Shown here: positions 18,444 to 61,611 of the stretch, piece by piece
Layout of the letters: each line of letters opens with the position of its first letter
How positions within the stretch are numbered: the stretch's first letter is position 1
Assembly (NCBI GenBank): GCA_015056585.1
Contig: SVFZ01000006.1
Location: forward strand, 1 to 64,000
Direction of reading: 5' to 3'
DNA: 64,000 bases
Source of the DNA: Butyrivibrio sp.
GTDB taxonomy: Bacteria > Bacillota > Clostridia > Lachnospirales > Lachnospiraceae
The notes under the pieces: model-generated
Told to the model about the DNA's origin: nothing
What the model saw: the letters and a program-made list of their open reading frames with translations, nothing else
Database searches by the model: none
Made by a program: the position numbers and the translations under genes

Positions 18444-18448
18444 TTACA

Positions 18449-20200: not shown

Positions 20201-20217
20201 TATTACAGCTCCCGATT

Positions 20218-26980: not shown

Positions 26981-28033
26981 TCAGCCTTTAATTATCTGAT
27001 AAATCCCCCTCAGTAAAAAGAAAATCTCAAATGAACCAATTTTTAAGCTAAAATATCTGATTGAGCTAATCTTTTTTGCTCTGTAAACTTCAGTAAGAAT
27101 TGTCTGAAACTCACTGCTTCGAAGTTCATCGCGAAGCTTCTGTTTAACCAATGCTCTGTATTCCCCTTTGTGATACATCACATAAAAAGCGGTCAATCTC
27201 CTAACCCAGTCTGTTATATATATTCTTTTGACAATAAGGACATTATCTTCTGTAGCGCTTTCCTGTGTAGCCTCCCAAGTTACCAGTCTCCTGTAGATTT
27301 CTTTAGTATCCTCAATATCCCCATCATGATAAGATATAGAAAGGCTACTGTCAGTTCTCTTGACATAATGATACAAAGGGCTATTAATCATACCAATAAA
27401 TCCATCCCGTTTATCAAGATAATCGAGATTAAACTTTAGATCCTCTCCAATCTTTATATCATCATCAAAAGCTATTGAATTATTCTTAATAACCCTACTG
27501 TCATAAAGTTTATTGGTAACAAAATTGAACAGTTCAAGCCACGATAGTGTAGCTGCCGAGCTTCGCCCTAGGAGATAATTCTCTCCACGGATATATCCAT
27601 GGGCAGATTCTAGCGTACGCTCAATACTGCCCCCATTTTTGTTGTACAGATTATCCACATACATTCCACAAACAATCATGGCGACATGCTTATTCTTCCA
27701 CTGCTCATTTGCCTCCATATATCTTTGGATTATGTCATCCTCAGGATAATCATCTGCATCAAAAAAGACTATAAAATCGCCTTTGGCATGCCTTATGCCA
27801 CGATTTCTAGTAGCTGAAACTCCTGCGTTTGAATGTGTATATACTCTTATTCGATCATCCCGGTCTGCATATGTCTTGCAAATTTCGAGCGTCGAATCGC
27901 TTGAGCCATCATCCACCACAATAATCTCTATATTCCGGTAAGACTGTCTTATAGTTGCCTCAATACAATCTTTTATAAACTTTTCTGCGTTGTAGGTAGG
28001 TATTACTACCGATACAAGTATCTCAGAATTCAT
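26981..28033 (-). CDS. Family 2 glycosyltransferase
   Basis: A 351-residue GT2 enzyme with VSVVIPTYNAEKFIKDCIEA, VDDGSSDSTLEICKTYA, GVSATRNRGIRHAKGD and VFFDADDYP. The ATG at 28033 is chosen because it lies three bases after the stop of the upstream fusion gene, where translation would re-start. A longer frame to 28090 would overlap that gene by 53 bases and add residues unlike the family. The C-terminus holds a hydrophobic stretch (FEIFFLLRGIYQII). Confidence 0.87.
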   Translation of the reverse strand: MNSEILVSVVIPTYNAEKFIKDCIEATIRQSYRNIEIIVVDDGSSDSTLEICKTYADRDDRIRVYTHSNAGVSATRNRGIRHAKGDFIVFFDADDYPEDDIIQRYMEANEQWKNKHVAMIVCGMYVDNLYNKNGGSIERTLESAHGYIRGENYLLGRSSAATLSWLELFNFVTNKLYDSRVIKNNSIAFDDDIKIGEDLKFNLDYLDKRDGFIGMINSPLYHYVKRTDSSLSISYHDGDIEDTKEIYRRLVTWEATQESATEDNVLIVKRIYITDWVRRLTAFYVMYHKGEYRALVKQKLRDELRSSEFQTILTEVYRAKKISSIRYFSLKIGSFEIFFLLRGIYQIIKG

Positions 28034-28037
28034 ATTA

Positions 28038-30167: not shown

Positions 30168-30472
30168 TGTAGCCTTTCTAAATCTATCTTATTCAACCTG
30201 CCAAATTCTAACCTTTTTCCCACAAAATGCCATCCCATATTTAAGGCAAGTAGCATAATTATAGTATTTCAATTGACTTTCATATTTTTTATCAGTAATT
30301 TGCTCAGACCGGAAAAGAAGCCATTAAGAATCAAATAATATCTATATTCTCTGTATTCGTGATAAAAAGACAACGGGATATTTATTCATATATTTTCAAC
30401 AACATCCTTATGTCCCATTATTTCCAGATTCGTCTGCATTTGAATCCCCCATATTCGCTGACATTCTAAAAC
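30168..30472. other. Intergenic region upstream of the GT4-GT2 operon
   Basis: About 300 bases of AT-rich DNA without a convincing reading frame on either strand. It holds a minus-strand TATAAT at 30258-30263 that could be the -10 of the 30167 operon; no good -35 lies 16-18 bases upstream of it. On the plus strand TTGACT (30273-30278) is seen but faces no nearby gene. Confidence 0.5.
30258..30263 (-). promoter_or_regulatory. Possible -10 element of the GT4-GT2 operon
   Basis: A perfect TATAAT on the minus strand, about 95 bases before the ATG at 30167. The -35 position is poor, so an activator or an extended element may be needed. The call rests on the -10 match and its position only. Confidence 0.4.
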
Positions 30473-30502
30473 AATTATAGCGCCGCAGTTTAAGCGGCGC
30501 TA
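30470..30502 (-). terminator. GC-rich terminator hairpin after the 304-residue surface protein
   Basis: A 9-bp stem (AGCGCCGC/GCGGCGCT at 30479-30486 and 30494-30501, plus one flanking A-T pair) with a 7-base loop. On the minus strand it is followed by ATAATTGTTTT, an imperfect T-tract. It closes the Wzz-like/kinase-like/surface-protein operon. Confidence 0.7.
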
Positions 30503-30542
30503 CTCTTTTCTCGCGATATCCTATGTATATTGCGTACTCAAA

Positions 30543-31457
30543 TTATTTCTTCTTGATATACAGAATTATTGCAACAACGGCAAGGATTAATCCCAATGCA
30601 GAAATGCCTCTACCAATCCAAAGTATCATTTCTTCATTTTCATTTGAAATAGTGATAACCTGATTCTCTTCTACTTCAACGCTGTACTTACCAAGGTCAG
30701 TTTCAACTCTCTGTCCATCAACATCAGTATATGCAAATACCAATTCAATTTCCTGATCGCCTGCCTCAGTAAACTTAATGCGAAGGTCTTCAGAATAGTT
30801 CTTGTTGGCTTTAATTGTTCCAAGTGAAATCACTTTGCTGTCAGGGGAAACAGTACCCTTTACGAGTATTTCTGCATCTGTAACTTTTTCACTTGTCAGG
30901 TTTACAAAACTGATACTAAGAAGGGATTCTCCATTAACAGTTGCATGAGTGCTGACATTTGTGGACTTAACCTCTATTGAGCCGCCACCAGAGTTAGGTA
31001 TTACAACTGTAGCCGTATTTGACATCTTTGCATTCATACTTGCATAATCAAACTTGCACACAAGATCCAACATCTCTGAATTATAGTTTGGTGCTATAGT
31101 GACCGGTACTGTCAATGTTTCCGACGACCCTGCCGCGATAGTTCCAACAAAAAATTGGTTATCACTACCATAAGAAGGATAAATAAGTCCTGTACTACTC
31201 GATACTGTCATAAGTACGTTAGTGGCTGCAGCAGTCCTGCTGGTATTATGAAGTGTCAGTTCAACAGATATTTCCTTACCTGCTGCCAATGTACCACCTT
31301 CAATAGAGTAGCTGTCAATAACAACAACCGCCGCGCTAGGACTAACAGTCTCAACTTCAGTAGCCTGCGCCGTTACGTCGAAACCTGCTCCTCCTATTAG
31401 CATCGCAAGGAGACATGCAAAACTCGCTTTAAAAAACAATAGAACCTTATTCATCAT
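30543..31457 (-). CDS. Membrane-anchored surface protein with CARDB/COG1361-like repeats
   Basis: A 304-residue exported protein. A signal peptide covers about residues 1-31, ending near VTAQA. Two beta-sandwich-like segments follow (GKEISVELTLHNTSRTAAA; ESLLSISFVNLTSEKVTDAE), each of the kind found in CARDB/NEW3-type adhesive domains. A single C-terminal helix and KKK tail anchor it to the membrane. Its ATG overlaps the TGA of the BY-kinase-like gene and its ribosome site AAAGGAG lies inside that gene, so the two are translationally coupled. This makes it a probable partner of the Wzz/kinase pair rather than a bystander. Function unknown. Confidence 0.7.
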   Translation of the reverse strand: MMNKVLLFFKASFACLLAMLIGGAGFDVTAQATEVETVSPSAAVVVIDSYSIEGGTLAAGKEISVELTLHNTSRTAAATNVLMTVSSSTGLIYPSYGSDNQFFVGTIAAGSSETLTVPVTIAPNYNSEMLDLVCKFDYASMNAKMSNTATVVIPNSGGGSIEVKSTNVSTHATVNGESLLSISFVNLTSEKVTDAEILVKGTVSPDSKVISLGTIKANKNYSEDLRIKFTEAGDQEIELVFAYTDVDGQRVETDLGKYSVEVEENQVITISNENEEMILWIGRGISALGLILAVVAIILYIKKK

Positions 31458-32170
31458 CTGTCTCCTTTCTTATTTTTTCTTGCCTTCTTTATATACTTTT
31501 CATTCTGGAAATAGTCGTAGTCCTTATTAAATGAAGCATACTGATCCATATCCATCTTATTGATAATTGTTCCAATGAGATTAGCTTTTACCTCAACGAG
31601 TGAATTTGCAGCATCTACAAGACCTCTCTTGGACGTCTCACCAACAGAAGAAACCAGAATGGTTGCATCTACATTAACAGCAAGAACCTTGGCATCCATG
31701 GCAGCATTTAAAGCCGGCATATCATAGATAATAAAATCATAGGTCTGCGCCAGTTCATCCTTAACCTCCGCCATTTTACTCGAGCACAGAAGTCTCACAG
31801 GATTGTCTATAAGCTCACCACAAGGAATGTAATAAAGGTTCTCTGTGGTAGTCTCATATACGACCTTGTCAAGAGAAGTCTTATTCATAAGATAGTCTGA
31901 CAGGCCGTTTCCGGCATTTTCATTAAGTCTCTTATAGCGATTTTTCTTTCTCATATCGCCATCAATAAGTACTGTCTTCCATCCAGAACTTGCTAGACCT
32001 GCTGCCAAATTAATTGCTACAGTTGTTGTTCCATCACCAGTCTCACATCCACAGATGACAAAGCTCTTATATCCCTTTTGCTTCCTAAGGATATGAAGGC
32101 TCATAACTGACTGATCAAATGCATTATTTAATACATAATTATCACTTTTATAAATTTCAAGCTTATTCAA
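31454..32170 (-). CDS. cpsD: CpsD/CapB-like BY-kinase homolog with altered Walker A
   Basis: A 238-residue cytoplasmic P-loop protein of the bacterial tyrosine kinase family. Walker A' (VLIDGDMRKK), Walker B (FIIYDMPAL) and a Tyr-rich C-terminus (four Tyr in YASFNKDYDYFQNEKY) are present. The Walker A reads GCETGDGTTTVAIN (residues 41-54): the invariant Lys of GKS/T is replaced by Thr (codons GGA ACA ACA ACT). The start is TTG at 32170, with AGGAGG seven bases upstream. It lies 17 bases after the Wzz-like gene, its usual activating partner. Kinase activity cannot be assumed; it may be a pseudokinase that controls chain length by binding only. Confidence 0.8.
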   Translation of the reverse strand: MNKLEIYKSDNYVLNNAFDQSVMSLHILRKQKGYKSFVICGCETGDGTTTVAINLAAGLASSGWKTVLIDGDMRKKNRYKRLNENAGNGLSDYLMNKTSLDKVVYETTTENLYYIPCGELIDNPVRLLCSSKMAEVKDELAQTYDFIIYDMPALNAAMDAKVLAVNVDATILVSSVGETSKRGLVDAANSLVEVKANLIGTIINKMDMDQYASFNKDYDYFQNEKYIKKARKNKKGDR

Positions 32171-32187
32171 TTTAGAACCTCCTCTCC

Positions 32188-32901
32188 TCAATCCTTATAA
32201 TCTGGTATTATTCCAATAACAGGAATATTTCCTCTGATTGTTGCTTCTCTAACTGTTCGAACCTTAGTATCAAGTATCTCGCAGAAAATAACTATCAAGC
32301 ATGCAAGAATAAATCCTACAATACCAAATAAGATTCTTACCTTCCATGCTTCGAAATCAGCATTATATGATTTGCTATATGTATAGGCATTATCAAGAAC
32401 TTTAACAGATTCCTTATTAAGAATATCATTCATTTCCAATGCATAAGACTGAGCCATGGCATCCGCCATCTCCATCGACAGTTCAGGATCTGTAGACGAT
32501 GAATAAAAAGAAATTATCGTTGCCGAACTGTTCATAAAGCTGGCAGTTGTTGCTGCTTTTGAAGCTTTTGCAGATGTACTGACACTTGTTGCAGCCTGCA
32601 GATCCTCCGCTGAAACATCTGCTCTACCTATAATGAGCGCTGCCCTCTGACAAATCTTGTATGAACTTGCAACATTCAGATATGCATTCATAGCAGTAAC
32701 AGCGTTCGTAGCATCAGAATAATTACCATCTGTTGCCGCATAAACCGTTGCTACCGCAGAGAATTTGTCCTGTTCAGGATTTAGTGTGAGGCCAACTCCA
32801 GTTATAAAAGACAAAAGCGCCATGAGAAGGGTAAACGATACTCTCTTAATTAGCGCACGCATACATCTCCCAACATCGATTTCCAAATCATTCTTATACA
32901 T
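32188..32901 (-). CDS. cpsC: Wzz/CpsC-like chain-length determinant
   Basis: A 237-residue protein with the two-helix Wzz topology. The first helix is near residues 20-43, an extracytoplasmic domain of about 140 residues rich in Ala/Ser/Thr follows, and the second helix covers about 190-212. After that helix a cytoplasmic tail ends in the ...NIPVIGIIPDYKD motif that contacts the kinase in this family. The ATG at 32901 follows GGAAGGAAG. It regulates polysaccharide chain length together with the CpsD-like protein encoded next. It is the first gene of its operon, divergent from the beta-helix gene. Confidence 0.85.
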   Translation of the reverse strand: MYKNDLEIDVGRCMRALIKRVSFTLLMALLSFITGVGLTLNPEQDKFSAVATVYAATDGNYSDATNAVTAMNAYLNVASSYKICQRAALIIGRADVSAEDLQAATSVSTSAKASKAATTASFMNSSATIISFYSSSTDPELSMEMADAMAQSYALEMNDILNKESVKVLDNAYTYSKSYNADFEAWKVRILFGIVGFILACLIVIFCEILDTKVRTVREATIRGNIPVIGIIPDYKD

Positions 32902-32946
32902 ATAGACTTCCTTCCTTTGTACATTTACCAACAGGCAACTTCACGC

Positions 32947-48428: not shown

Positions 48429-51400
48429 CTATTTAACATTTCTTCGAACTATCTTGTATGGAACTTCTTTGGTACCTACATATCGTCCCTGGCCTTCTAT
48501 CACTAAGGTTGCTTTTCCAACCCCTTCGCCAGAGTTCACATTAACGATTACATAATCCGATTCACCAAGTGCAACGGCTTTTTTCCCTGAACCAATTGTA
48601 ACCACTATATCATTTCTATCCGGAACCGCAGGATTTCCGTTGCGATATTCCTGATCTTTTACTGTGACCTTAGCCTTATCTATTGACATTTGCCCCATAC
48701 GATATGTCACTGAAAACTCTACAGGAATATAATTCCCTCTGGCATCTTTATCACTCGTGTAGTTCTTGCTCTTTGGCGAAGGGATAACACTAAATTTCAT
48801 ATTTATTTTAGCCCCCGCATGGACTACCTCATTAGCCGGAATCAAGGCTCCTGCTTTTCTGGAATATACTATTTTCCCGGAAGTATTTCGCTCAGTTATA
48901 CCCTCGGCGTAATAACAAGTCGGTGAATCAGCATACACATAATCAGAATTCAGTTTGAGCTTTACCCCATCATTGTAAAGCACCGGGGTGGATTTAAAGT
49001 AATTTTTACCTGCGTTTTCCTTATATACCAGGTCATTCGCAGCCACCTCTATTGAATCACTGTCCAGTCGTAAACGCGCCACTGTAAAGGTTAATACTTT
49101 AGAAAGCTTGCCCTTATAATTACCATCAAATTTTACTGTTATTGTAGCTTTCTTTCCCGCCGCATTATTCTTGGCATATGAAACAACATAGTCCTTATCT
49201 TTAATAAGCTCTTTTCCATCATTAAGCACAACTGCTATGTCCGGGGTAGCAAGCCCTCCAACAAGTGGAACCGCCGTCGGATCAAGCTCCGGGTCCAAGA
49301 AGCTGACCTTCACATCCTTCGATGTAAGTTTTGTTTTCACAATCTTAATTTTCTTTGAAACACTTCCAGTAGTACCTTTGCTTGGTATACCTTTAAATTC
49401 TACAGTAACTGTTCCAACGTCATATCTGTCATAGGTCGTTGAAATAGTAAAGCGATCACTTGATAGAACCTGCTTGTTGGAATTAACGATGACTGCGCCT
49501 AACCTTTCAACGGACGCCTGGGTATCAATATCAAAATATCCATCTCCATCATCATCCTTGTCTGAATACACAAGGACATAATTGCCATCATAATTAAGCT
49601 TTGTATTTATACTCTTTATAGAAATCTTGGATCCCTTTATTTCAAAGAAAACATTGTATGAACCGGCAAGTCTGTTAAACTCAGGGTTATCAGTTGGTAC
49701 AATAGTTATATAATTGTCTTTACCAACATAACGATTGATATCCGGATTTTCAATCGCAGGGTCAACTATGCTGTAATAGTATCCCTCCTCAGAAATAGCA
49801 GAATTGGCTGCATCATCTTCTATATAGGTAAGTTCCTGCCTGCCTATTTTTACTTTTATTTTGCCTTCCTTAAAAAGCTTTATTACATCTTCAGATACCG
49901 ACATCGGTATTCCATTATCGTCTTCCCTATATTCCAAAGCAGCAATCTTTTTTGACAGCTTTGCTTCATCAAGCTGAAGATAATTTGCCTCAACCGATGT
50001 CTTAGAGAGAACCTGAAGTCTGGGAGCCCAGGTTTCTCCGCTTGAAGCAAGAACACCTGTAAAGTTCTTTTTTCCTTCTATGTTAACTAGATAAAACAGA
50101 TCTTCATCCGGATTATCTTCCATGCAATTGTTAACATCTTCTTTTACCTCTTCTGCTGTTAACGGATTATCAAAATCTATGATTTCTTCGCCATCTTCAA
50201 TAGTTATCTTATTGTAGAAAATCTCATAGTCATTCTTATCTGAAAGAGTAACAGTCTTTCCGCTTGGAAGGTCTGCCTTTACGACAGGATTCTGAGCAAA
50301 AGATTTATCGTAATAACGGCCTGTCAGATTTGATGAAGATGCCAAATATGCATCAGAAATGTCCATGGCATTTATATCAAAATAAACAGTGGCCGTACCT
50401 GTATAATTACCGGTCAGCGCAAGTTTGACAGCCGGTGCATTAAGTGTTTCCTTGTCACTCTCGTCAACTCCATCTGAGGTAACAAAAGCATCCGTATTAT
50501 CTGAATATGAAACAGTATAATCCGTTCCCGCCAACAGTTTTTTTCCATTATAATAAACCCTTAGATCGTCCTCACTGTAAGTAATTTCATCGCCAGTGTA
50601 TTTTTTTGCATATAAACTGCTAACCACGAGACCACTACTTGCAATGTCGACATCTTCAAATAATGCCCGGTCTTTTTCGTCTATTTCAAAACTCTGTACA
50701 GGCTCAGGTTCCTCCGCCGGTTCATCATATGCATAATCAACAGGTTCTTCAGTAGAAGATTCCTCAGACATTCCATCTTCTGCATCTGAATTCTGTGCAG
50801 GTATTTCCTGATCCTCCAGCTCTTGATTTTCTAAAGATATATCTTTAGAATCCTCTGAATTGTCATAGTTTGAAGTGTCTCTATAGGGATAATCTCCATC
50901 CATCGACTCCTCATAGGGAATATCCTCGTACCCTGTGTCCTCGCTCAATAAATCCCTTTGCTCAAACTCGCCATCTGTTACTTCCTGATTTTCAGGCTCA
51001 CCCGCCCCAGTAAGTTTCCTTACAATCGCCGCCAAAACATCCTTTATATTAAACGGGACATCAACCGAAGTTCTTCCCGTTGGAACTACTTCCTCAGCAT
51101 ATGCAGGGGAAGCATCATTGTACTTTGCATACAGGATAATGTCGGAATTTAAGCTGATTCCTTCACTGAAATCAACTTTCTCCGTTAACGCCTCATCATA
51201 GTACCAGCCATCAAATTCTTTGCTACCATCGGGAACTGCCAAGGTGAAATCAAATGACCTTAAAGCGTTCTCGGAAGCATAGACATGTAAAGTCATTATT
51301 CTTTCAACAACGTCATACTCCCAATACTTAATATCCTCACATAACCCCAAACTGCTAATCAACTGACCTTCACCGGGATAGAATTTAATTGAATATGTGA

Positions 51401-51770
51401 TATCGCTTTCAGATTGATCATCCAAAGCATAATCCTGATTCTGTATATCCAGAGAGCCATCATCTCCGGTATCCAGCTCAGCGTCAAACAGCCCTCTATC
51501 AATTTCAAGTCCATCCTTAAGTACATTTTCTCCTATTATATCTTCATCTTTGTCTTCATCATTGCCGTCCTCAGACAAAGTTGCATCTTCTTCAGTGTTA
51601 TCATCCAAAGTTTCACTTTCTTCAGTGTTATCCTCTAAATTTTCACTTTGTTCATCAAAAAATAGAACGTCTCCACCTTCAGACGCGTAGGCTGTGACAC
51701 CCTTCACATTAATACAAGATAATACCAATACCCCAGCAATAATGATTGCAAACAATCGTCGTCCTAACAT
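48429..51770 (-). CDS. Large secreted acidic repeat protein (InlB-type repeat and Ig-like repeats)
   Basis: A 1113-residue exported protein. A signal peptide (MLGRRLFAIIIAGVLVL, cleavage near YASEG) is followed by a very acidic linker. An InlB/Listeria-Bacteroides type repeat comes next (about residues 120-220, ending EFDGWYYDEALTEKVDF...ILYAKYN). A second acidic, low-complexity region (about 260-370) follows. The rest holds several copies of a module with the pattern K-x-L-x-x-G-x-D-Y-x-V-x-Y...GNYTGT (for example DLRVYYNGKKLLAGTDYTVS and DYVVSYAKNNAAGKKATI). There is no LPXTG signal or C-terminal helix, so anchoring may be by charge or polysaccharide binding. The ATG at 51770 follows AAGGAGG. 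Likely a cell-surface adhesive or matrix protein. Confidence 0.8.
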   Translation of the reverse strand: MLGRRLFAIIIAGVLVLSCINVKGVTAYASEGGDVLFFDEQSENLEDNTEESETLDDNTEEDATLSEDGNDEDKDEDIIGENVLKDGLEIDRGLFDAELDTGDDGSLDIQNQDYALDDQSESDITYSIKFYPGEGQLISSLGLCEDIKYWEYDVVERIMTLHVYASENALRSFDFTLAVPDGSKEFDGWYYDEALTEKVDFSEGISLNSDIILYAKYNDASPAYAEEVVPTGRTSVDVPFNIKDVLAAIVRKLTGAGEPENQEVTDGEFEQRDLLSEDTGYEDIPYEESMDGDYPYRDTSNYDNSEDSKDISLENQELEDQEIPAQNSDAEDGMSEESSTEEPVDYAYDEPAEEPEPVQSFEIDEKDRALFEDVDIASSGLVVSSLYAKKYTGDEITYSEDDLRVYYNGKKLLAGTDYTVSYSDNTDAFVTSDGVDESDKETLNAPAVKLALTGNYTGTATVYFDINAMDISDAYLASSSNLTGRYYDKSFAQNPVVKADLPSGKTVTLSDKNDYEIFYNKITIEDGEEIIDFDNPLTAEEVKEDVNNCMEDNPDEDLFYLVNIEGKKNFTGVLASSGETWAPRLQVLSKTSVEANYLQLDEAKLSKKIAALEYREDDNGIPMSVSEDVIKLFKEGKIKVKIGRQELTYIEDDAANSAISEEGYYYSIVDPAIENPDINRYVGKDNYITIVPTDNPEFNRLAGSYNVFFEIKGSKISIKSINTKLNYDGNYVLVYSDKDDDGDGYFDIDTQASVERLGAVIVNSNKQVLSSDRFTISTTYDRYDVGTVTVEFKGIPSKGTTGSVSKKIKIVKTKLTSKDVKVSFLDPELDPTAVPLVGGLATPDIAVVLNDGKELIKDKDYVVSYAKNNAAGKKATITVKFDGNYKGKLSKVLTFTVARLRLDSDSIEVAANDLVYKENAGKNYFKSTPVLYNDGVKLKLNSDYVYADSPTCYYAEGITERNTSGKIVYSRKAGALIPANEVVHAGAKINMKFSVIPSPKSKNYTSDKDARGNYIPVEFSVTYRMGQMSIDKAKVTVKDQEYRNGNPAVPDRNDIVVTIGSGKKAVALGESDYVIVNVNSGEGVGKATLVIEGQGRYVGTKEVPYKIVRRNVK

Positions 51771-51850
51771 ATTATCTGCCTCCTTTTTAGCATGCATCAA
51801 TTAAGGATTTTTAACACAAGAAGCATCCTTGCTCCAAGATATAAATAATA

Positions 51851-53328: not shown

Positions 53329-54531
53329 TTATTCTGAATAAATCCTCATTATTTTTTCAAGGTATTCATCTATATTATCAAAGCTTAGTTCCCTGCATGC
53401 TTCATGCATTTGCTCTGATTTCTTATCATCCTGCCATAAAGTATGGATTGCATTGCATAATTGCTCAACATCTCCGCTATTATATAATAACCCCGTCTTG
53501 CCAACTTTGATAAGTTCAGGAATTCCTCCTATATTAGCTCCTATCACAGGTGTTCCGTAGAGCTGTGATTCCATTACTGAGAATGGACAGTTTTCATACC
53601 ACTCTGATGGATAAACAGACATTCTTGCCTTACGGATAAGATTCTCAAGATCCTTCCCGCTCTGGAAACCTACATTCTTAATGTTCGGAACTTCGGCAAG
53701 AAGATCCTCCAGTGGTCCTTTTCCTGCGAACACAAAATCAACCTCGGGCATTCTCTTAGCTGCCTCTAATAAGGTTCTGATACCTTTTTCCTCAGAATAT
53801 CTTCCGAAATAAAGAACGTAATCTTCCTTCTCGACTTCAACCCAGGGAATCTCATCAATAAAGTTATGTATTGCCACAGTCTTAGGAGCGAAAAGAGGAT
53901 TACTATCAAGCTTACTCTTCATGAATTCGCTACAGCAAATGAATTTATCTATATATTTATATGTTCCCTTAAGCTTCCAGAAAGTAGCTTCCATGGTTCC
54001 AATGGCGCTCTTAGCAGTACTTCCGTGAATGCATTTTCCCTTGGTGCAATTTATGAACTTTCCACTGAGACATTTCTCACAGTTCTCTCTGGTATTTGGA
54101 TTATTGCACATGTGATTAGGGCAAACCAACTGATAATCATGAGCTGTAAATACTATTTTACAAGCATGGTCATTTTCTTTTCTCCACTTAACAATCTCCA
54201 GAATAATTGACGGTGTAAGCTGATAATTAAAATTGTTGAGGTGTACTACATCAGGCTTAAAGTCCTCAAGTACGAGCCTGATTTTTTGACGAGCATCCTT
54301 AGAATATATGGTTTTAAAAGGATATGTCATCTTTTCAAGTTTGCTGGCGTTATGAAAGTCCATATCCTGAGTATATGCATTTACTCTGTTACCAACACAT
54401 CTGCCCTCGTGCTCCATGCCAAAATACTGAACCTCATGTCCTTTAGCCATTAAAGCTTCGCCCAGCTTAAAAATATAAGTTTCAGATCCTCCATTAGGAT
54501 AAAGAAACTTGTTTACCATCAATATTCTCAT
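53329..54531 (-). CDS. Family 4 glycosyltransferase
   Basis: A 400-residue GT-B enzyme with MRILMVNKFLYPNGGSETYI at the start, VLYFGRYSEEKGIRTLLEAA and ENCPFSVMESQLYGTPVIGA (E-x7-E region). A Cys-rich insertion (CPNHMCNN...CEKCLSGKFINCTKGKC) around residues 130-160 looks like a metal-binding loop seen in a subgroup of GT4 capsule enzymes. The ATG at 54531 follows GGAGAG; an ATG 15 bases upstream overlaps that site and is rejected. Paired with ugd, it may transfer a uronic acid. Confidence 0.87.
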   Translation of the reverse strand: MRILMVNKFLYPNGGSETYIFKLGEALMAKGHEVQYFGMEHEGRCVGNRVNAYTQDMDFHNASKLEKMTYPFKTIYSKDARQKIRLVLEDFKPDVVHLNNFNYQLTPSIILEIVKWRKENDHACKIVFTAHDYQLVCPNHMCNNPNTRENCEKCLSGKFINCTKGKCIHGSTAKSAIGTMEATFWKLKGTYKYIDKFICCSEFMKSKLDSNPLFAPKTVAIHNFIDEIPWVEVEKEDYVLYFGRYSEEKGIRTLLEAAKRMPEVDFVFAGKGPLEDLLAEVPNIKNVGFQSGKDLENLIRKARMSVYPSEWYENCPFSVMESQLYGTPVIGANIGGIPELIKVGKTGLLYNSGDVEQLCNAIHTLWQDDKKSEQMHEACRELSFDNIDEYLEKIMRIYSE

Positions 54532-54783
54532 AATATCTCTCCACATACGCTACTTTAGTATCTTTTCAGCAAAGAACAAGTAGCCAAAACTAAAAACTGT
54601 TATCACTATCCGCAAAAGTATACAGCTAATTACTAATCTTGGCAATTGACAGTATTTAAAAATAATAATCCGCTTTTACGATAATCATATGTTAATTTTA
54701 ACAATTATCACTTAAGCATTAACAAAATATGGCAATCATTATTCCTGTCATTCTCCTACACGTATTTCCTTAAGTTATTTCGC
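54532..54783. other. Leader of the GT4-ugd unit
   Basis: About 250 bases without a gene between the GT4 start codon and the terminator of the Rpn gene. It holds the GT4-ugd promoter (54617-54645). The rest is AT-rich, and nothing else was recognised. Confidence 0.5.
54617..54645 (-). promoter_or_regulatory. Promoter of the GT4-ugd unit
   Basis: Minus-strand TTGCCA (54640-54645) and TATACT (54617-54622), 17 bases apart, each one base from consensus. The start codon is about 85 bases downstream. Confidence 0.75.
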
Positions 54784-54883: not shown

Positions 54884-55144
54884 TCAGTTCTTTTCAGACA
54901 GTTTATTGTAAGCCTTCACGGCCATTACTTCTTCTGTTAAGCAGCCGCAAAGATCAGCAATCTCTTCCGGAGCCATATCCTTTTGAAGCATATTTGCTAT
55001 AATTCGGTTTTTTTCCTCATCAATGCCTTTGATGCGTCCTTCTTCAAGACCTTCTTCACGACCTTCTTCGCGTCCCTCCTCAAAGGCCTCTTCCTTAATG
55101 ACTTTCATATGACCGGCTTTGTTGTATTCATATAAACTATACAT
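54884..55144 (-). CDS. Possible intragenic small protein from the Rpn gene
   Basis: Inside the Rpn gene, in the same frame, an ATG at 55144 is preceded by AAGGCGG (55150-55156) with 5-base spacing, close to a full ribosome site. Starting there would make an 86-residue protein: the GREE repeat plus the C-terminal helical region, without the nuclease core. E. coli rpn genes are known to make such in-frame C-terminal products (RpnS) that inhibit the full-length nuclease. Whether this site is used is inference. Confidence 0.4.
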   Translation of the reverse strand: MYSLYEYNKAGHMKVIKEEAFEEGREEGREEGLEEGRIKGIDEEKNRIIANMLQKDMAPEEIADLCGCLTEEVMAVKAYNKLSEKN

Positions 55145-55837
55145 AATGACCGCCTTTCTTTCACGTAACAAGAAATCCTTAAGTATATCGTGATCAATAC
55201 AATAGTCCACAGCCTTGGGTACAGCTTTGTTTAGTGATTCATTTTCCGAGAATTCCCGAACCTTCGCCACATACATAGAGTACTCATTGAGTTTCCTGCA
55301 GCTTTGCATCAGTGATGGATTCATTCCCTGATTGATGTTAAGAACTTTCACTGTCAGTTCAAGATTCGGCGATTCTGAAAGATTCTGATACAGTTCTGAC
55401 AGTCTGTAGGTCATTTCCTCCGGCATTTCATCTGTTCCATTATAAAACATCACAAAATGAGGCTCCGGAATCTGAATACGCTTACTGCCGTATATTCTAT
55501 CCTCGTCAACCAGTTGAGAAAATAGGCTACTAACATACAAAAGACATCTAAAAGGCATATTGGGGCACTTACTTGATTGATGCTCATAAATGTTCAGGTG
55601 AGTATCAATTATAAATGACAGATCATTATGCATACCCATAAAAATTGCATTGTCCAAAGTGTTGATGATAAGATCGTCAGGATTCTCATAATGCGAGTGA
55701 TTAATGGCATTGTAGAGATCCAAAAGTGCTTTTCTGTCCTCCTTGAACAGTAGTCTGAATACTGTGTCCTTGTACTTCCTGTTAGCCCATGGCCATCGAA
55801 GTTTCGTAAATATAAATTTATCTATCCTGTTTCCCAA
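54884..55837 (-). CDS. Rpn family PD-(D/E)XK nuclease (recombination-promoting nuclease)
   Basis: A 317-residue protein. DTVFRLLFKEDRKALLDLYNAI opens the family domain, and the nuclease core D-x5-D...EHQSS sits near residues 72-88 (NDLSFIIDTHLNIYEHQSS). The C-terminal part has a tandem GREE repeat (EEGREEGREEGLEEGRIKG) and a final helical segment. The family is often labelled transposase, but it lacks an RNase H core and cuts DNA. E. coli members are toxic nucleases linked to phage defence. Here it is a single-gene unit flanked by hairpins on both sides, a typical mobile or accessory gene slot. A possible internal start is described separately. Confidence 0.85.
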   Translation of the reverse strand: MGNRIDKFIFTKLRWPWANRKYKDTVFRLLFKEDRKALLDLYNAINHSHYENPDDLIINTLDNAIFMGMHNDLSFIIDTHLNIYEHQSSKCPNMPFRCLLYVSSLFSQLVDEDRIYGSKRIQIPEPHFVMFYNGTDEMPEEMTYRLSELYQNLSESPNLELTVKVLNINQGMNPSLMQSCRKLNEYSMYVAKVREFSENESLNKAVPKAVDYCIDHDILKDFLLRERKAVIMYSLYEYNKAGHMKVIKEEAFEEGREEGREEGLEEGRIKGIDEEKNRIIANMLQKDMAPEEIADLCGCLTEEVMAVKAYNKLSEKN

Positions 55838-56154: not shown

Positions 56155-57639
56155 TCAGTGCACATAAAAATAATAACTCGAGCCTGTCTTGTATAAAAGC
56201 TCAGCATCAAGTCCCTCTATTACAGACTCAGGCTCAGATGTGTAAGTCAGCAACATATAGTCTTTTTTAGCGTCAACAACATCCTGTGCAGTGTTTTCAT
56301 CAACAATACAATAACTCTTTGCATGAAGGAGTGGCTCAAAGAAACAGAAGCTGTTCCAATCTTCATTTATGTAAACTACTGCTTCCTTATCTTCCATATA
56401 ATTCATCGTAGAGTTCAGTTCTTCATTGTGATAGCAGTTTGGGACACAAAAGCCTCTTGAAATCAGATTTCCTGTATTTATAATCAAAAAAACTATAAGC
56501 GCAATGCAGGATGCATATCGAGCGCCAGCAAACACTGTAACAAGCTCTGAAATGATCAAATATCCAATCAAAATAAATCCAAAAGCTGTGCACATGACAT
56601 ACCTGGCAGTTGTAAACGGAGCAATCTTGCCGACTACAAGAACATATAATAAACAGCTTAGTAAAAGTGCCGCCTCAAACCCCCAAAGTTTTTCTTTTTT
56701 CTTAAATTTCAGAAGAATCAATACTGCAAGTGCTATTGCAAAAACCAAAAGAAGCCCCCAAAATCCTTGCTCGTTAAGAGCTTTAAACAAACCCTTAGCA
56801 CCTTTAAAAAGGCCTCCGAAAGAAAGAGCCTTAGAAATAGCCTGTCTTCCTCTATATCCTCTGAAAAGGTGACCAACAATGTGATACCAGATTATCAGGT
56901 AAAAGATTCCTGATCCTGCGGCAGTAAAGATGCTCGTGCGAAGTTCCTTATATTTTCTGTTCATTTTAAGATTTATGGCAAAACATACACAAATAAAGAA
57001 AGAGAATATAAGGAAATAGTAATGAGTAAGCATTCCCAGAACTATAATAGCAGAGAACAATCTATAGAATTTTTTATCCAGTTCTTTATCCCAATAGTGC
57101 TTAATCAGATATGAAAGCGCTATCGTAAAAAACGCGAACTGAGTATACATTCTGATGAACATAATAGTATTCAGGAATATTACTGATGTCCCGTAAGCCA
57201 ATATGATTCCAAAAGACATAAACTCGCTTCCCGTAATTTCTTTAGCCAGCTTATAAAGCAAATACATAATGGCAATCATCCACAGAATATTCACTGCTAT
57301 TCCATACCACTTGCTAAACGTATTCGGAAAGAATGAACATACAGTATGGAAAATAATATAATATAGCGGTGGATGCACATCTGCCGCTTGATTTTTCCAT
57401 ACATTCACGTAGTTAAATCTCTGTCCTGAATTAACCTCCATATAGTCTTCAAAGGGCCCCATTCCTGAATATTCTTGTCCACGTTCAATCTTCGGTGTAA
57501 TGCCGCCTACATGATTGGCCAGTCCATAATTCCATATTTCATCCAGATTATATCCAACCTTTTTGAAGCCTAAAAAGACAGACATAATGGCAACTACGAT
57601 GATCACTACCCCAATCATTATTCTTTCCCGTGCTTTCAT
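56155..57639 (-). CDS. GT-C type membrane glycosyltransferase-like protein
   Basis: A 494-residue polytopic protein, paralogous to the one at 6534..8171. It has the first-loop acidic motif NLDEIWNYG, then AADVHPPLYYIIFH, then a series of helices and a soluble C-terminal end (YTSEPESVIEG...YFYVH) like that of its paralog. This is the pattern of PMT/ArnT-like GT-C enzymes using lipid-phosphate sugars. It has its own strong promoter and terminator, so it is expressed separately from the adjacent HprK-like cassette. The sugar is unknown. Confidence 0.75.
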   Translation of the reverse strand: MKARERIMIGVVIIVVAIMSVFLGFKKVGYNLDEIWNYGLANHVGGITPKIERGQEYSGMGPFEDYMEVNSGQRFNYVNVWKNQAADVHPPLYYIIFHTVCSFFPNTFSKWYGIAVNILWMIAIMYLLYKLAKEITGSEFMSFGIILAYGTSVIFLNTIMFIRMYTQFAFFTIALSYLIKHYWDKELDKKFYRLFSAIIVLGMLTHYYFLIFSFFICVCFAINLKMNRKYKELRTSIFTAAGSGIFYLIIWYHIVGHLFRGYRGRQAISKALSFGGLFKGAKGLFKALNEQGFWGLLLVFAIALAVLILLKFKKKEKLWGFEAALLLSCLLYVLVVGKIAPFTTARYVMCTAFGFILIGYLIISELVTVFAGARYASCIALIVFLIINTGNLISRGFCVPNCYHNEELNSTMNYMEDKEAVVYINEDWNSFCFFEPLLHAKSYCIVDENTAQDVVDAKKDYMLLTYTSEPESVIEGLDAELLYKTGSSYYFYVH

Positions 57640-57789: not shown

Positions 57790-58701
57790 TTATTTCCCAA
57801 AAATAGTGCTGATATGCCTTATGACTTCGCCAAGGGTATCCTTCCCTTTCGGCCTTGTAATCTGATATATCTGTACAATCGCTGCAATCTTAAGACAGCT
57901 TTGCATATATTCAGGAGGAACTCCCCAGAATTTAAATCCGTCTTCGCCACGGTAAATGTTTCGAAGAATAAGCATAAGCTTCTCGTGACCAGTAATTTCC
58001 CGAAAAGAAAGATCCTCTTCATTTGAAAGCATGATCTCAAATAGATAATGAAAGTCCGCCCCCTCAGGCAAAAAGCCATCTTTCAGCCTCAAAGCATATT
58101 TATCCCTGTCTTCATTTATATAAATCAGTTCCGAAAGATCATAGCCTTTTTTTGCAGCCGCATCTCTACACAACTTTTGCTGAGGATATGCCATGTTGAT
58201 GTGTGGTCTTTCTCCTTCCACGGAAATCGAACAAACATCATCAGCAATAAATAAAAAGCCTTTTTCCAAAAGAGCATCCGTCACAGTTGATTTTCCGGCT
58301 CCGGACTCTCCGGTTACGATTACACCCTTTCCGTCCTTTGCAACAGCTCCTCCATGTAAAAGCACTTGCTTCCTTAGAAGCATGCAATATCCAAATCCGC
58401 TTCCCAATAAAAAACTTCTTATCTGTTGATGATCAGCTCCGCGCGAAGGTGCAACAGTGATAGAATCTTTTGTAACCCAATAATCCCCTACTCCCGGAAT
58501 TCTATAAACCATTGTGTCCTTCGAAAAAGCTACAAACGGTTCATCTTCACTTTTGTCCTCAAACAGGTCAAGAGCCTCCTTTGGCATATCTCCGATAACA
58601 ATTCTCACATCGGATTTATCAGGAAACTCTCTTTCGTATGCCTCCTCTATCTGGATTTCAGATTCAACATTTAAGCCATATAAAAAATATTTATAGTTCA
58701 T
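57790..58701 (-). CDS. HprK-like P-loop kinase (lasso-peptide kinase relative)
   Basis: A 303-residue protein of the HPr-kinase-related family. It has LLHGGAVAKDGKGVIVTGES with Walker A GESGAGKST at residues 131-139, then FIADDVCSI, the D-D pair of HprK-like active sites. It lacks the full HprK/P signature and the N-terminal domain. Relatives (PadeK/ThcoK type) phosphorylate the C-terminal Ser of lasso peptides, and others occur in exopolysaccharide loci without a known substrate. It is the third gene after the nucleotidyltransferase and B2-type protease. The 81-base gap before it holds no convincing precursor gene. Confidence 0.82.
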   Translation of the reverse strand: MNYKYFLYGLNVESEIQIEEAYEREFPDKSDVRIVIGDMPKEALDLFEDKSEDEPFVAFSKDTMVYRIPGVGDYWVTKDSITVAPSRGADHQQIRSFLLGSGFGYCMLLRKQVLLHGGAVAKDGKGVIVTGESGAGKSTVTDALLEKGFLFIADDVCSISVEGERPHINMAYPQQKLCRDAAAKKGYDLSELIYINEDRDKYALRLKDGFLPEGADFHYLFEIMLSNEEDLSFREITGHEKLMLILRNIYRGEDGFKFWGVPPEYMQSCLKIAAIVQIYQITRPKGKDTLGEVIRHISTIFGK

Positions 58702-58782
58702 GGTCGCATTTCCTCACGAAAGCAAAATAGTCCTAATAATGTGCAATCCCAAACACAACCGAATTATAGTCACAGTCATATA

Positions 58783-59190
58783 TCACAGGCAAAACTTGGC
58801 AACAATCCCGTAGCCATCACCATTGCCTCCAGTGGCATACAATTTTCCACAACGAAGCCATGAATGCGCAATCATTTTGCCGTTCTCATCTTTGCCCACC
58901 CCAAGATACATTGTTGAAGTAATGCCTTTTCTTCGTAAAAAATATCTGACTGTCAACGCTCTCACCAGACATTTGCTCTTCCAGGGGGTTTTTCCAGCGA
59001 TTCTATTTACATCAGTAGAGACATCATAGGCATATTTATAATTCCATGATGTGTCATCCGCAGGAGATTCCTCCCCTCTTTTCCCCCACCTTTTTTCAAG
59101 TTTTTTTGATGGAATCAATAGCATCTGTGCTCTGTAGAAGGCTGTAAGATACCAGATTGCCACAACTCTCCTAATATTTTTATTCTTCAT
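58783..59190 (-). CDS. Lasso-peptide B2-type cysteine protease (transglutaminase-like)
   Basis: A 135-residue protein that matches the stand-alone B2 leader peptidase of lasso peptide pathways. TPWKSKCLVRALTVRYFLRR has the catalytic Cys74 in the W-x3-CLVRA motif. STMYLGVGKDENGKMIAHSW then has the catalytic His109, and the segment continues as LRCGKLYATGG. The Asp of the triad is probably in the last 15 residues. No PqqD-like (B1) domain is fused or encoded next to it, and no lasso cyclase is in the window. Its ATG overlaps the end of the nucleotidyltransferase gene by 11 bases, so the two are coupled. Confidence 0.88.
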   Translation of the reverse strand: MKNKNIRRVVAIWYLTAFYRAQMLLIPSKKLEKRWGKRGEESPADDTSWNYKYAYDVSTDVNRIAGKTPWKSKCLVRALTVRYFLRRKGITSTMYLGVGKDENGKMIAHSWLRCGKLYATGGNGDGYGIVAKFCL

Positions 59191-60427
59191 CTAAAAGTCC
59201 CACGCTTCCAAGAAGCCCTAACCTGGATTCAACAATTTCCACCTTCTGCATCCCTGTAAATGATTCTTTATTCCTTATAAAAAGTTGCCACAGTACTTTT
59301 CGCACCGCTCTATGAACCCACGCTATAGGAAGAAGCGCCGGCATTTTCTTGGCATATTCATAATTTTCATTAAGTTCACAGGGCCTTGGAAAAAGAAAAT
59401 TGATTGTCCTCGCCAGCTTACTCTTTTTAATTTTCGTCCTCTCACCCACAAAATACGGCTCAAGTGTGCTTGTTAACTGCCACTGTTCTGTTCTGAGCTG
59501 ATTTTCATCTCCAATATAAATAAAATCCACAAGAAGGGCATCCAGTATTTGTTCATCAGTCTGCATTTCATGACCGTTTAATATGAATTCCTTCATACCA
59601 AATTTTGTGATACAGATGGTAAAGAAATTCTCACAAAACTTTGTATAGCCACATTTTTCCATTACATCCCAGAAAAATACCGGATTGATATTATCCGAAT
59701 TCTTATCAACAAACAGAACAATATCCGTAAAGAACTTAATGCTCGCTCCTTCGAGAATAAAATGCTTTATCATATGAAACACCAGATATACAAGATGTTC
59801 ATTTACTCCGAAGGTTCTGATCTTGCCTTCTTTTAATCTCACGTTAATTCTATGCTCAGGTCTATCTATACCTGCGCCCCTGATAATTTCTATCTTAGAG
59901 CCCTTGTAGTCCTCAAAAACGCTGGTATGCAGCTCTATCTTGTGTCCGGTGTGCTCATTCTTATAGACAAAAACCTGCTCTTTGGTTTCATGCTCCATGA
60001 TCGAATAGCCTCTTCTTTCAATCATTCCGCAAACCTTTACTCTGTCGCTGGGATCCACCAGAATATCCGAGTCGGACGAAATCCTGTAAAGAGGGTTGGG
60101 ATAGCAGGCTGCAACTATCGGTCCCTTAAATACAGCATAATCTATTTTTGCCTCATTCATTTCAAAAAGCAAATCCATAAGAGCATGCAAGTATTTTGCC
60201 TGCCTTATGTATATCTGAAGGCGAGTCGCTTCCCACTGTTTCAAAAGATCATCCGGAATTTCCCCTACTTGTCTCGCCACATCCAAGACAACCGCAGCAA
60301 GACCGTTTTTGTAAGCCAGTTCCAAAATGCCTTTCCAATCAGCACAATCAAAAAAGCCATCATTTCCAGGAATCTGGTTGATGGCTCTATTTGTAAGTTC
60401 AATAAAATCTCTCTCTATATCCTTCAT
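59180..60427 (-). CDS. NTP_transf_5-type nucleotidyltransferase
   Basis: A 415-residue protein of the minimal-nucleotidyltransferase-like family that accompanies lasso and other RiPP genes. AKIDYAVFKGPIVAACYPNP is followed by YRISSDSDILVD, with the D-x-D metal ligands at about residues 119 and 121. After VYKNEHTGHKIELHTS a long helical C-terminal half follows. It is the first gene of a three-gene unit and starts 100 bases after the rplL terminator. No strong promoter was seen in that gap, so expression may need an activator or read-through. The reaction is unknown; AMP or other nucleotidyl transfer to a peptide or sugar is possible. Confidence 0.82.
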   Translation of the reverse strand: MKDIERDFIELTNRAINQIPGNDGFFDCADWKGILELAYKNGLAAVVLDVARQVGEIPDDLLKQWEATRLQIYIRQAKYLHALMDLLFEMNEAKIDYAVFKGPIVAACYPNPLYRISSDSDILVDPSDRVKVCGMIERRGYSIMEHETKEQVFVYKNEHTGHKIELHTSVFEDYKGSKIEIIRGAGIDRPEHRINVRLKEGKIRTFGVNEHLVYLVFHMIKHFILEGASIKFFTDIVLFVDKNSDNINPVFFWDVMEKCGYTKFCENFFTICITKFGMKEFILNGHEMQTDEQILDALLVDFIYIGDENQLRTEQWQLTSTLEPYFVGERTKIKKSKLARTINFLFPRPCELNENYEYAKKMPALLPIAWVHRAVRKVLWQLFIRNKESFTGMQKVEIVESRLGLLGSVGLLDEE

Positions 60428-60526: not shown

Positions 60527-60557
60527 AAAAAAAGAGCAGATGCAAAAACGCATCTGC
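60527..60557 (-). terminator. Intrinsic terminator of rplJL
   Basis: An 8-bp perfect stem (GCAGATGC/GCATCTGC) with a 6-base loop, followed on the minus strand by TCTTTTTTT. It ends the ribosomal operon 30 bases after rplL, where rpoB would normally follow. Confidence 0.93.
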
Positions 60558-60588
60558 CCTTGTATGATCTGTTATTAAGAAGCAAGAA

Positions 60589-60966
60589 TTACTTAAGAGT
60601 AACCTTAGCGCCCTCAGCCTCAAGCTTAGCCTTGATGTCATCAGCCTCAGCCTTAGCAGCGTTCTCCTTAACCATCTTAGGAGCTCCATCAACGAGATCC
60701 TTTGCTTCCTTAAGTCCAAGACCTGTAAGCTCACGAACAACCTTGATAACCTTAACCTTGTTAGGACCAACCTCTGTAAGCTCTACGTTGAACTCAGTCT
60801 TCTCCTCACCAGCTGCTGCTGCGCCAGCACCTGCTGCTGCAACTACAACGCCTGCTGCTGCAGATACGCCGAACTCTTCCTCACAAGCCTTTACAAGATC
60901 GTTAAGCTCAAGAACTGTAAGCTCTTTGATAGCATCGATAAATTCTGCTGTTGTTAACTTTGCCAT
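60589..60966 (-). CDS. rplL: 50S ribosomal protein L7/L12
   Basis: A 125-residue stalk protein with the N-terminal dimerisation helices ([19 protein letters not shown]), the Ala/Gly-rich hinge (about residues 36-54) and the C-terminal factor-binding domain ([20 protein letters not shown]...GAKVTLK). GGAGG lies nine bases before the ATG. It follows rplJ by 69 bases and is closed by a strong terminator instead of leading into rpoB. Confidence 0.98.
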
Positions 60967-61035
60967 TATTATATACCTCCATATAGTATAATTTCTGAAT
61001 TTGTGTTGTTAAAAAAACTAACTAATCTGTACAGA

Positions 61036-61611
61036 TTACTCTGCTGCAGGTGCTTCTGCAGGAGCTTCTTCTGTAGCAGGTGCCTCTGCTGTCTCAGCAG
61101 GAGCTTCCTCAGCTGCAGGAGCTGACTCGCCGCCTTTCTCTGCGATCTGATTGATAACGCGAGCGAAGTTTGCGATAGGTGACTGCATAGAACCAAGCAA
61201 TCTTGAAAGAAGAACTTCCTTTGAAGGTATGGAAGCAATCTCAGTCATTGCTGATGCATCATAGAATTTACCTTCTATAACACCACCCTTAATCTCAAGA
61301 GCCTTAGCCTGCTTAGCAAACTCGTAAAGAACACGAGCCGGAGCTGCCGGATCTGTCTCAGAAACAGCCATTGCTGAAGGACCGTTTAAAAGGTCAGAAA
61401 GCTGCTCGAAATCAGTTCCCTTGAATGCGAAGTTCATCATCGTATTCTTGTAAACCTTATATGTTACGCCTTCTTCACGAAGTTTCTTACGAAGCTCAGT
61501 ATCCTGTGCAACAGTAAGTCCGCGGTGATCTACAAGTACGACAGCCTGTGCGTCTTTAATCTTTGAAGAAATCTCTTCAACTACAGGCTTTTTAAGTTCA
61601 ACCTTTGCCAT
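61036..61611 (-). CDS. rplJ: 50S ribosomal protein L10
   Basis: A 191-residue stalk-base protein. VELKKPVVEEISSKIKDAQA and VVLVDHRGLTVAQDTELRKK are typical; the C-terminal helix that binds L7/L12 lies near 130-165. The last 30 or so residues form a low-complexity Ala/Glu/Pro tail (EEAPAETAEAPATEEAPAEA) beyond the usual length of about 165-175. AAGGAGG lies seven bases before the ATG. It is controlled by the L10 leader and attenuator upstream. The rplK and rplA genes that usually precede it are not here. Confidence 0.98.
   Translation of the reverse strand: MAKVELKKPVVEEISSKIKDAQAVVLVDHRGLTVAQDTELRKKLREEGVTYKVYKNTMMNFAFKGTDFEQLSDLLNGPSAMAVSETDPAAPARVLYEFAKQAKALEIKGGVIEGKFYDASAMTEIASIPSKEVLLSRLLGSMQSPIANFARVINQIAEKGGESAPAAEEAPAETAEAPATEEAPAEAPAAE

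Follow-up and report, generated by a model that had tools for sequence, protein, structure and literature searches.

A lasso-type gene cassette without a detected cyclase, and a candidate unlinked precursor, in a Butyrivibrio genome

The window analysed here, bases 1 to 64,000 of an 88,614-base contig (C64) from the genome of a rumen Butyrivibrio sp. (G000; an assembly of 3.44 Mb in 128 contigs, 94.5% complete), carries a cassette of three genes encoding an NTP_transf_5 nucleotidyltransferase (NTP5), a B2-type leader peptidase and an HprK-like kinase, beside two genes that we take to be rplL and rplJ. We propose, with moderate confidence, that this trio and a PqqD-like gene (B1) just beyond the window are the remains of a paeninodin-type lasso operon, which would have been kept as a cyclase-free pathway to linear peptides that are phosphorylated, and perhaps glycosylated, at the C-terminus. 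The original prediction had allowed for a substrate peptide encoded elsewhere; this now appears to be the best reading, and a small gene on contig C73 of the same genome is a concrete candidate for it.

The cassette genes and the search for a cyclase

By their sequences the three genes are real and intact, and are recognisable as those that remove the leader and tailor the peptide in a lasso pathway of the paeninodin type. That they are coupled and of lasso type, with no cyclase or precursor beside them, and that Cys74 and His109 of B2 and the Walker A motif of the kinase are intact, had been predicted from the DNA alone, and coordinates, Pfam and NCBIfam profiles (Table 1) and alignments all agree with this. 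The B2 open reading frame (ORF) overlaps the 3' end of the NTP5 ORF by 11 nt, and its product is also named lasso_biosyn_B2 by NCBIfam (NF033537; 72.7 bits against a cut-off of 33). The Hpr_kinase_C match is confined to residues 110-164 of the kinase, the Walker A region, with the motif GESGAGKST at residues 131-139. Alignments from which the divergent B2 of G105 and all kinase fragments no longer than 280 aa had been excluded beforehand revealed that the catalytic residues are retained in the homologues: Cys74 and His109 are invariant across 22 B2 proteins, His116, Lys137, Asp154 and Asp155 across 19 kinases, and Asp119 and Asp121 are among 20 residues invariant across 21 NTP5 proteins. AlphaFold2 models, both built from small alignments, reached pLDDT 86.5 for the kinase, with PEPCK and HPr kinase/phosphatase as top Foldseek matches (E 1e-7), and 84.5 for NTP5, whose weak top PDB matches are the nucleotidyltransferase folds of MenT1, LnuA and ANT(2'') (E 3e-4 to 4e-3). 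By its neighbourhood NTP5 may be a tailoring enzyme akin to PsmN of pseudomycoidin. B2 is the sole PF13471 match above cut-off in the assembly (the other, of 22.6 bits, lies in a 369-aa frame), and NTP_transf_5 is likewise single-copy at the curated cut-off.

The original prediction also had both B1 and the cyclase absent, and neither is in the window; a single PqqD gene is, however, encoded on the contig and strand of the cassette. Its product passes the lasso_PqqD_Bac profile (Table 1), to which the PqqD of a related genome, G070 (Butyrivibrio sp. RGIG1500, a metagenome-assembled genome from goat abomasum), scores 82.6 bits; it is followed on the same strand by a VanZ-like gene, a gene for a SEC-C protein and one that is presumably thrS. 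No lasso cyclase was found in the G000 assembly, nor a complete lasso cluster anywhere else in it. The Asn_synthase matches in G000 are two MCGI-type amidotransferases (C61), AsnB (C80) and GuaA (C108), and a profile of 10 cyclases, at E <= 1e-20, retrieved one protein each from G000 and G070 (101-103 bits), in both cases an MCGICG amidotransferase (91% identical to each other). Scores with the same profile are 385-918 bits for cyclases of the main type and about 88-165 bits for the divergent ones encoded next to precursors; since it recovers both kinds elsewhere, either should have shown in G000 and G070.

An ordinary lasso pathway, with its cyclase and lasso precursor in the unassembled part of the genome, would fit the number of contigs and the incompleteness of the assembly, as well as the scattered precursors and extra cyclases that are common across the genus. 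Yet G070, at 94% completeness, is equally without a cyclase, other genes follow HprK on the contigs of both genomes, and the first leader profile described below is silent in both assemblies; a double chance gap is improbable, and we regard this explanation as quite unlikely.

Orthologous operons and selection

To place the cassette among its relatives we surveyed 116 genomes, 72 of the genus (that of the window included) and 44 of the order, and compared the B2 regions of 20 other genomes, for some with their flanks, together with loci of G513, G515, G516 and G517. B2 was present in 21 of the 116 genomes at E <= 2.5e-10, and in 24 of 79 Butyrivibrio genomes at E <= 1e-10. A lasso-type cyclase occurs in 21 of these 24 (partial in G037, split between frames in G062 and of the divergent kind in G041). 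The other three are G055, described below, and G000 and G070, in which B2 is intact but a cyclase is missing. G071 was considered as a further such case and rejected: no cyclase was seen within about 20 kb, but one lies about 30 kb away.

The B2 proteins of G000, G070, G515 and G517 share 67-74% pairwise identity and form one clade (support 100/99), as do the four kinases (100/99); other full-length B2 proteins are at most 56% identical to that of the window, and the truncated G037 piece is 68% identical over 65 residues. All four cassettes sit in the stretch after rplJ-rplL. The order is rplL-NTP5-B2-HprK-cyclase-two precursors-UGDH-GT4 (a family 4 glycosyltransferase) in G515, ABC-B2-HprK-cyclase-two precursors-GT4 in G517, and rplL-PqqD-VanZ-NTP5-B2-HprK-GT4-repeat surface protein in G070; in G000 a weakly PMT_2-like membrane protein occupies the position of the cyclase of G515 and G517. 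Thus the cassette, whose descent was at first unknown, derives from a lasso operon, as its orthologues at the same site in G515 and G517 carry a cyclase and precursors. On a plain reading, G000 and G070 have probably lost theirs. The clusters of G061, G019, G039 and G513 border SEC-C/thrS and, where seen, dapF, and in G000 this border site retains only PqqD-VanZ. An NTP5 scan of a contig collection returned one relative, which is G070 itself, and one of a viral collection returned no match; among the matches listed from 397 genomes of the family, drawn evenly and with few of the genus, none outside G000 exceeded 35% identity.

The retained genes appear to be under strong purifying selection between G000 and G070. 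The nonsynonymous and synonymous proportions (pN/pS) are 0.11/0.70 for PqqD, 0.30/0.73 for VanZ, 0.22/0.74 for NTP5, 0.19/0.67 for B2 and 0.21/0.76 for HprK, and none of the five genes has an internal stop in either genome. The corresponding values for the cyclase-bearing pair G515-G517 are 0.19/0.85 for B2, 0.23/0.69 for HprK and 0.29/0.73 for the cyclase. At residues invariant elsewhere G000 departs in 1 of 18 for B2 (in an N-terminal alignment gap), 0 of 19 for HprK, 0 of 20 for NTP5 and 0 of 15 for PqqD, and G070 in 0 of 18, 0 of 19, 0 of 20 and 1 of 15, respectively. End branches in the cyclase-free genomes are similar to those in the cyclase-bearing ones (0.28 and 0.16 versus 0.23 and 0.27 for B2; 0.23 and 0.33 versus 0.25 and 0.24 for HprK).

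The chief alternative is a decaying remnant, in which a recent loss of cyclase and precursors, perhaps separate in the two lineages, has left the remainder intact but making nothing. Decay is known in the genus: the B2 of G055 has three stops, in a genome with only an MCGICG amidotransferase and no leader peptide at E <= 10, and both B2 and cyclase of G037 are truncated; nor does the B2 tree, discussed below, back one shared loss. With synonymous sites near saturation, however, all five genes have stayed intact at low pN, conserved residues are kept, end branches are much like those of the cyclase-bearing relatives, and both genomes retain a syntenic leader-bearing gene (next section). Hence we consider decay unlikely, though it is the most serious competitor to a pathway that is still in use.

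A candidate precursor at the sulfate permease site

The leaders of the relatives share the pattern MKxWxxP....L....T. A profile of 15 such leaders gave matches at E <= 1e-3 in 16 of the 116 genomes, all of them B2-bearing, and none at E <= 1 in G000 or G070, where no lasso-type precursor was found. A profile of 23 leaders, run on 8 genomes, yielded in G000 one weak small-ORF match, on C73 (Table 1), and a further match inside a 2692-aa frame. The C73 peptide reads MKKEWIEPEIEMLELEDTES-VLDKFVPGPALLSIQFS, with MKKEWIEPEIEMLELEDTES as its leader. Its gene is solitary, flanked by genes for a sulfate permease and a flagellin and unlinked to the cassette, and is preceded by a strong Shine-Dalgarno sequence (aaggagg). 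G070 has a syntenic peptide, MKKEWVEPQIESLDLGETTA-LKNDLTSISPVFMLLTDHWRPSDQS; in both genomes the neighbours run trpG-trpE-GH8-sulfate permease-peptide-small protein-HerA-like, with an extra flagellin gene and a 684-aa gene in G000. An upstream box (tatgtaaggaggga) is identical in the two, and a stable terminator-like fold lies 3' of each gene (z -4.5 in G000, -4.9 in G070). The leader is conserved, the cores are not convincingly alignable and both end in Ser. Across the 20 leader codons the differences by codon position (5, 3 and 12) point to coding constraint, though they are few.

The paeninodin precursor model NF033524 is the sole NCBIfam match of either peptide at E <= 1 (E 0.0058 for C73 and 0.0024 for G070). 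With the core starting 1-4 residues after the Thr, neither peptide has an acidic residue (Asp/Glu) at core positions 7-9. Given this and the lack of a detected cyclase, the C73 peptide should not become a canonical lasso. When it was searched against the 79 Butyrivibrio genomes its top non-self match was G070 (E 0.0025), followed by G513 (E 0.54), with any match at E <= 10 in 12 of the 79; this search missed the syntenic genes of G061 and G513 and gave that of G039 only E 1.06, and is thus no guide to absence from other genomes. A regular expression for the leader, combined with a Shine-Dalgarno sequence, picks out 36 of the 284 distinct small ORFs in the loci examined, both syntenic peptides included, many of these loci having been chosen for the precursors they hold; it finds none among 72 small ORFs from 457 kb of loci selected without regard to precursors, and hits 43 of 496,000 shuffles. 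A C-terminal Ser ends 15 of the 36 matching ORFs and 25 of 251 non-matching ones.

A precursor encoded as a small ORF beside the cassette was also considered and rejected: the best 60 short-ORF matches between the surroundings of the G000 cassette and G070 all fall within or antisense to larger genes. Motif scans for a leader in the window, in L010 and L054 (two of the loci compared) and in flanks gave nothing convincing, and no [YWF]xxP small ORF with a convincing leader appeared in nine loci scanned. A DNA pattern for M-K-x-W leaders, which is unable to match the C73 gene owing to one extra residue ahead of the Trp, hits 16 places in G000 and 18 in G070 (reversed control, 3 and 3); the leader expression found no match in loci covering seven of these places in each genome.

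The interval between the sulfate permease gene and the flagellin or HerA-like gene is a recurrent home of lasso-leader precursors (L134, L152, L156, L158, L160), joined in some Butyrivibrio by a kinase and a divergent cyclase. In G061 the site encodes an HprK-like kinase and a precursor whose core is of the TEVL kind, and the 16 kb examined hold no cyclase. As the site in G000 and G070 holds a precursor only, a kinase for it would need to be supplied by another locus, the simplest choice being the cassette at rplL. Alternatively, a functional cassette could have some other, unrecognised peptide as its substrate, the C73 gene being part of something else. The weak leader score of the C73 peptide would allow this, as would a kinase whose Pfam match is limited to the Walker A region. 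The PqqD is nevertheless of lasso type, the only NCBIfam model that the two syntenic peptides match at E <= 1 is that of the paeninodin precursor, and the syntenic genes of G061, G513 and G039 adjoin an HprK-like kinase (in two of them below the Pfam cut-off). We therefore hold this alternative to be improbable.

If the C73 peptide is the substrate, the following route can be envisaged: 1) B1 would bind and present its WxxP leader; 2) HprK would phosphorylate its C-terminal Ser; 3) NTP5 may decorate the Ser phosphate with a nucleotide or sugar, as reported for PsmN in pseudomycoidin; 4) B2 would cleave the leader shortly after the conserved Thr; and 5) the linear peptide would be exported by some transporter.

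Several observations weigh against this proposal. 1) The B2 tree pairs G000 with G517 (96/95), and conflicts with the HprK (98/96) and NTP5 (97/92) trees, which pair G000 with G070; a single shared loss of the cyclase is hence likely but not proven. In hisC and a 159-aa membrane protein, as in the HprK and NTP5 trees, G000 and G070 are closer to each other (pN 0.07 and 0.10) than to G517 (0.17-0.22). A shared loss would mean that selection has continued in the absence of a cyclase, whereas two recent and independent losses would weaken the argument from selection. 2) B1 is contiguous with the trio in G070 but 6 kb from it in G000, and the G070 assembly is listed at 8% contamination. 3) The C73 gene was retrieved at only E 1.68, the G070 peptide was not retrieved by the same 23-leader profile at E <= 10, and the NF033524 scores (16.3 and 17.6 bits) are below the cut-off of 27. 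4) The leader expression and the Shine-Dalgarno criterion were composed after the C73 peptide was known, and a simple terminator scan did not list the fold 3' of its gene. 5) At the sulfate permease site G513 and G039 have a precursor, a kinase, a divergent cyclase and a second precursor, and G061 has a divergent cyclase with its own precursor about 18 kb from the site; this precursor family is thus not always cyclase-free. 6) No exporter adjoins the cassette, the ABC exporter of the surrounding island being 40 kb away.

Known systems, surroundings and other loci

The published systems closest to the proposed pathway are the following. In paeninodin and pseudomycoidin the kinase modifies the precursor at its C-terminal Ser and requires His-Lys-Asp-Asp, and in pseudomycoidin the phosphorylated Ser is either given hexoses or nucleotidylated by PsmN (PMC9266682). 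G000 shares with these clusters a B1 of the lasso_PqqD_Bac class, B2, a His-Lys-Asp-Asp kinase, a nucleotidyltransferase and the WxxP leader class (PMC9266682); it differs in having no detected cyclase and no precursor in the cluster, with a candidate lacking a ring acceptor on another contig. Linear polyphosphorylated peptides (LPP) of Bacillota come from cyclase-free pathways that use a signal-peptidase-like enzyme and are often encoded close to capsule loci; they have been interpreted as linear counterparts of phosphorylated lasso peptides (PMC13381572). Like them, G000 combines an RRE, an HprK-like kinase and an NTP transferase without a cyclase in a polysaccharide-linked setting (PMC13381572). 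LPP clusters, however, have LppS (SpI-like), the leader YxxPxVLxHQxIxFETxxS, which MKKEWIEPEIEMLELEDTES does not fit, and an RRE clade of their own, as opposed to B2, a WxxP leader, a lasso-type B1 and an unlinked peptide gene in G000 (PMC13381572). By profile score, a B1 above the lasso_PqqD_Bac cut-off speaks against the LPP clade. Protein scans around the cassette and around the C73 gene, which were not extended genome-wide, showed no LppS-like peptidase. The words Butyrivibrio, Lachnospir- and Clostridia are absent from the main text of PMC13381572.

The lasso cluster of G517, whose two precursors are identical to those listed for Butyrivibrio sp. YAB3001 (PMC7533575, Table 3), has the orthologous B2 and HprK at the rplJ-rplL site, but also a cyclase, a pair of lasso precursors and a neighbouring ABC transporter, and no NTP5 or PqqD was recognised in the 80 kb examined. 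Rumen lasso clusters with kinase, PqqD and nucleotidyltransferase, both complete and 'incomplete', have been catalogued (PMC7533575), and those of the Hungate1000 genomes again in PMC13289728. Among open-licence papers we recognised no report of a cyclase-free B1/B2/kinase system with an unlinked precursor. The G000 system appears to follow the logic of LPP, but with the B1 class and the B2 of lasso pathways and an unlinked precursor, and would be neither an LPP nor a lasso cluster.

We see an even chance that a Butyrivibrio lineage has converted a lasso pathway into one for linear phosphopeptides: the cyclase would have been discarded, B1, B2, the kinase and the nucleotidyltransferase would have been retained by selection, and their substrate would be a precursor from a distant, conserved site whose core lacks a ring acceptor. 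LPP-like peptides would then have arisen a second time, with B2 replacing the signal peptidase. Lasso enzymes are usually regarded as a set for tying a knot. Here only the knot-tying step and the cassette's own precursors are gone, and the genes for recognition, cleavage and C-terminal phosphorylation and decoration are apparently still selected, which offers a natural comparison. If the proposal is true, the decorated C-terminus, not the knot, may be the selected part of polysaccharide-linked peptides. Leader-bearing precursors can lie far from the B2 cassette in this genus, and hence cluster-based mining would label such systems 'incomplete'. The cyclase-free pair G000/G070 and the cyclase-bearing pair G515/G517 open the question to direct in vitro test.

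Table 1. Features of the cassette, its surroundings and the candidate precursor (positions in the window, or contig:position)
Feature	Position	Strand	Evidence
NTP_transf_5 nucleotidyltransferase (NTP5), 415 aa	59180-60427	-	PF14907, E 2e-37, 129 bits (cut-off 31.2)
B2-type leader peptidase, 135 aa	58783-59190	-	Transglut_core3 PF13471, E 3e-18, 66 bits (cut-off 26)
HprK-like kinase, 303 aa	57790-58701	-	Hpr_kinase_C PF07475, E 1e-9, 38.7 bits (cut-off 33.3)
PqqD (B1), 6 kb upstream of the trio	C64:66463-66792	-	NF033536 lasso_PqqD_Bac, 83.8 bits (cut-off 80)
Candidate precursor, 37 codons	C73:41594-41707	+	weak leader-profile match
Terminator-like stem-loop between rplL and NTP5	60532-60561	-	13-pair stem, then T-run
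rplL and rplJ (presumed), conserved chromosomal anchor of the site	60589-61611	-	ORFs; orthologues upstream of the cassette in G070, G515 and G517
Weakly PMT_2-like membrane protein	56155-57639	-	PF13231 E 4e-4 and NF047440 49 bits, both below cut-off
Glycosyltransferase family 4 (GT4)	53329-54546	-	PF00534, E 1e-27
Surface-type protein, 1123 aa, List_Bact_rpt (Flg_new) repeat	48429-51800	-	PF09479; relative in G070

The stem-loop after rplL suggests that the cassette may be transcribed separately from rplJL. In each of the four genomes of the clade a GT4 gene follows downstream of the cassette (83-90% identity among them), and GT2-type glycosyltransferase genes occur in nearly all loci mapped. 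It had been suggested that the system is re-purposed to act on a surface component, and one could think of a surface protein, a polysaccharide or HPr itself, given that the cassette lies within a 55-kb polysaccharide island with glycosyltransferases and a repeat surface protein nearby. Nothing beyond this neighbourhood points that way, and such neighbourhoods are common for LPP and paeninodin clusters alike (PMC13381572), glycosyltransferases being present in 36% of the clusters of PMC7533575 and GT2-type genes in most complete Butyrivibrio loci mapped. The kinase has no full-length match to HPr(Ser) kinase/phosphorylase TIGR00679, reaching 41 bits over residues 109-161 only, far under the cut-off of 240. 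A surface component or HPr is the least probable target of all those considered, and very improbable.

The island (5267-60589, cassette included) splits rplJ-rplL from rpoB (1398-5267, by Pfam), and in G513 rplJ-rplL directly adjoins rpoB. Between the cassette and the GT4 gene, at 54884-55837, lies an Rpn-family recombination-promoting nuclease/transposase-like gene (TIGR01784, below cut-off), possibly a relic of rearrangement. A radical SAM protein (PF04055; 47364-48323) is encoded on the + strand, opposite to its polysaccharide neighbours, and the island further holds two AMP-binding (adenylation-type) proteins and a DUF6056 protein at 11578-20245, with the ABC exporter at 18449-20245. At the rpoB end of the corresponding island of G515 (contig C99, L136, 3770-6075) there is a second lasso-like locus, with a precursor that begins MKNWEQASIVELKITETEHQWAFQWSLDGG and a cyclase (32%), adjoining orthologues of window positions 26981-32931.

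Elsewhere in the genus, divergent cyclases are found at L153, L156, L158, L159, L161, L163, L164, L165 and L166; they are 22-25% identical to the main group, start with MSGI or MSSI and not MCGI, and lie beside precursors, most of them far from B2. Two of the kinases at the sulfate permease site were scanned and reach 24 bits to Hpr_kinase_C, below the cut-off of 33. Lasso-type leaders followed by Cys occur at L047 (4184 and 12731) and L043 (18107), with Glu/Asp at position 8 or 9 if the core starts there. These were considered as a new cyclase-free class and rejected, since the acidic residue and the cyclases of these genomes make them lasso-like; they are possibly Cys1 lasso peptides. Similarly, precursors near cyclases at L064 (6877), L068 (2367) and L136 (3941) have a core perhaps starting with Trp and an Asp at 7 or 8, and are possible Trp1 lasso peptides.

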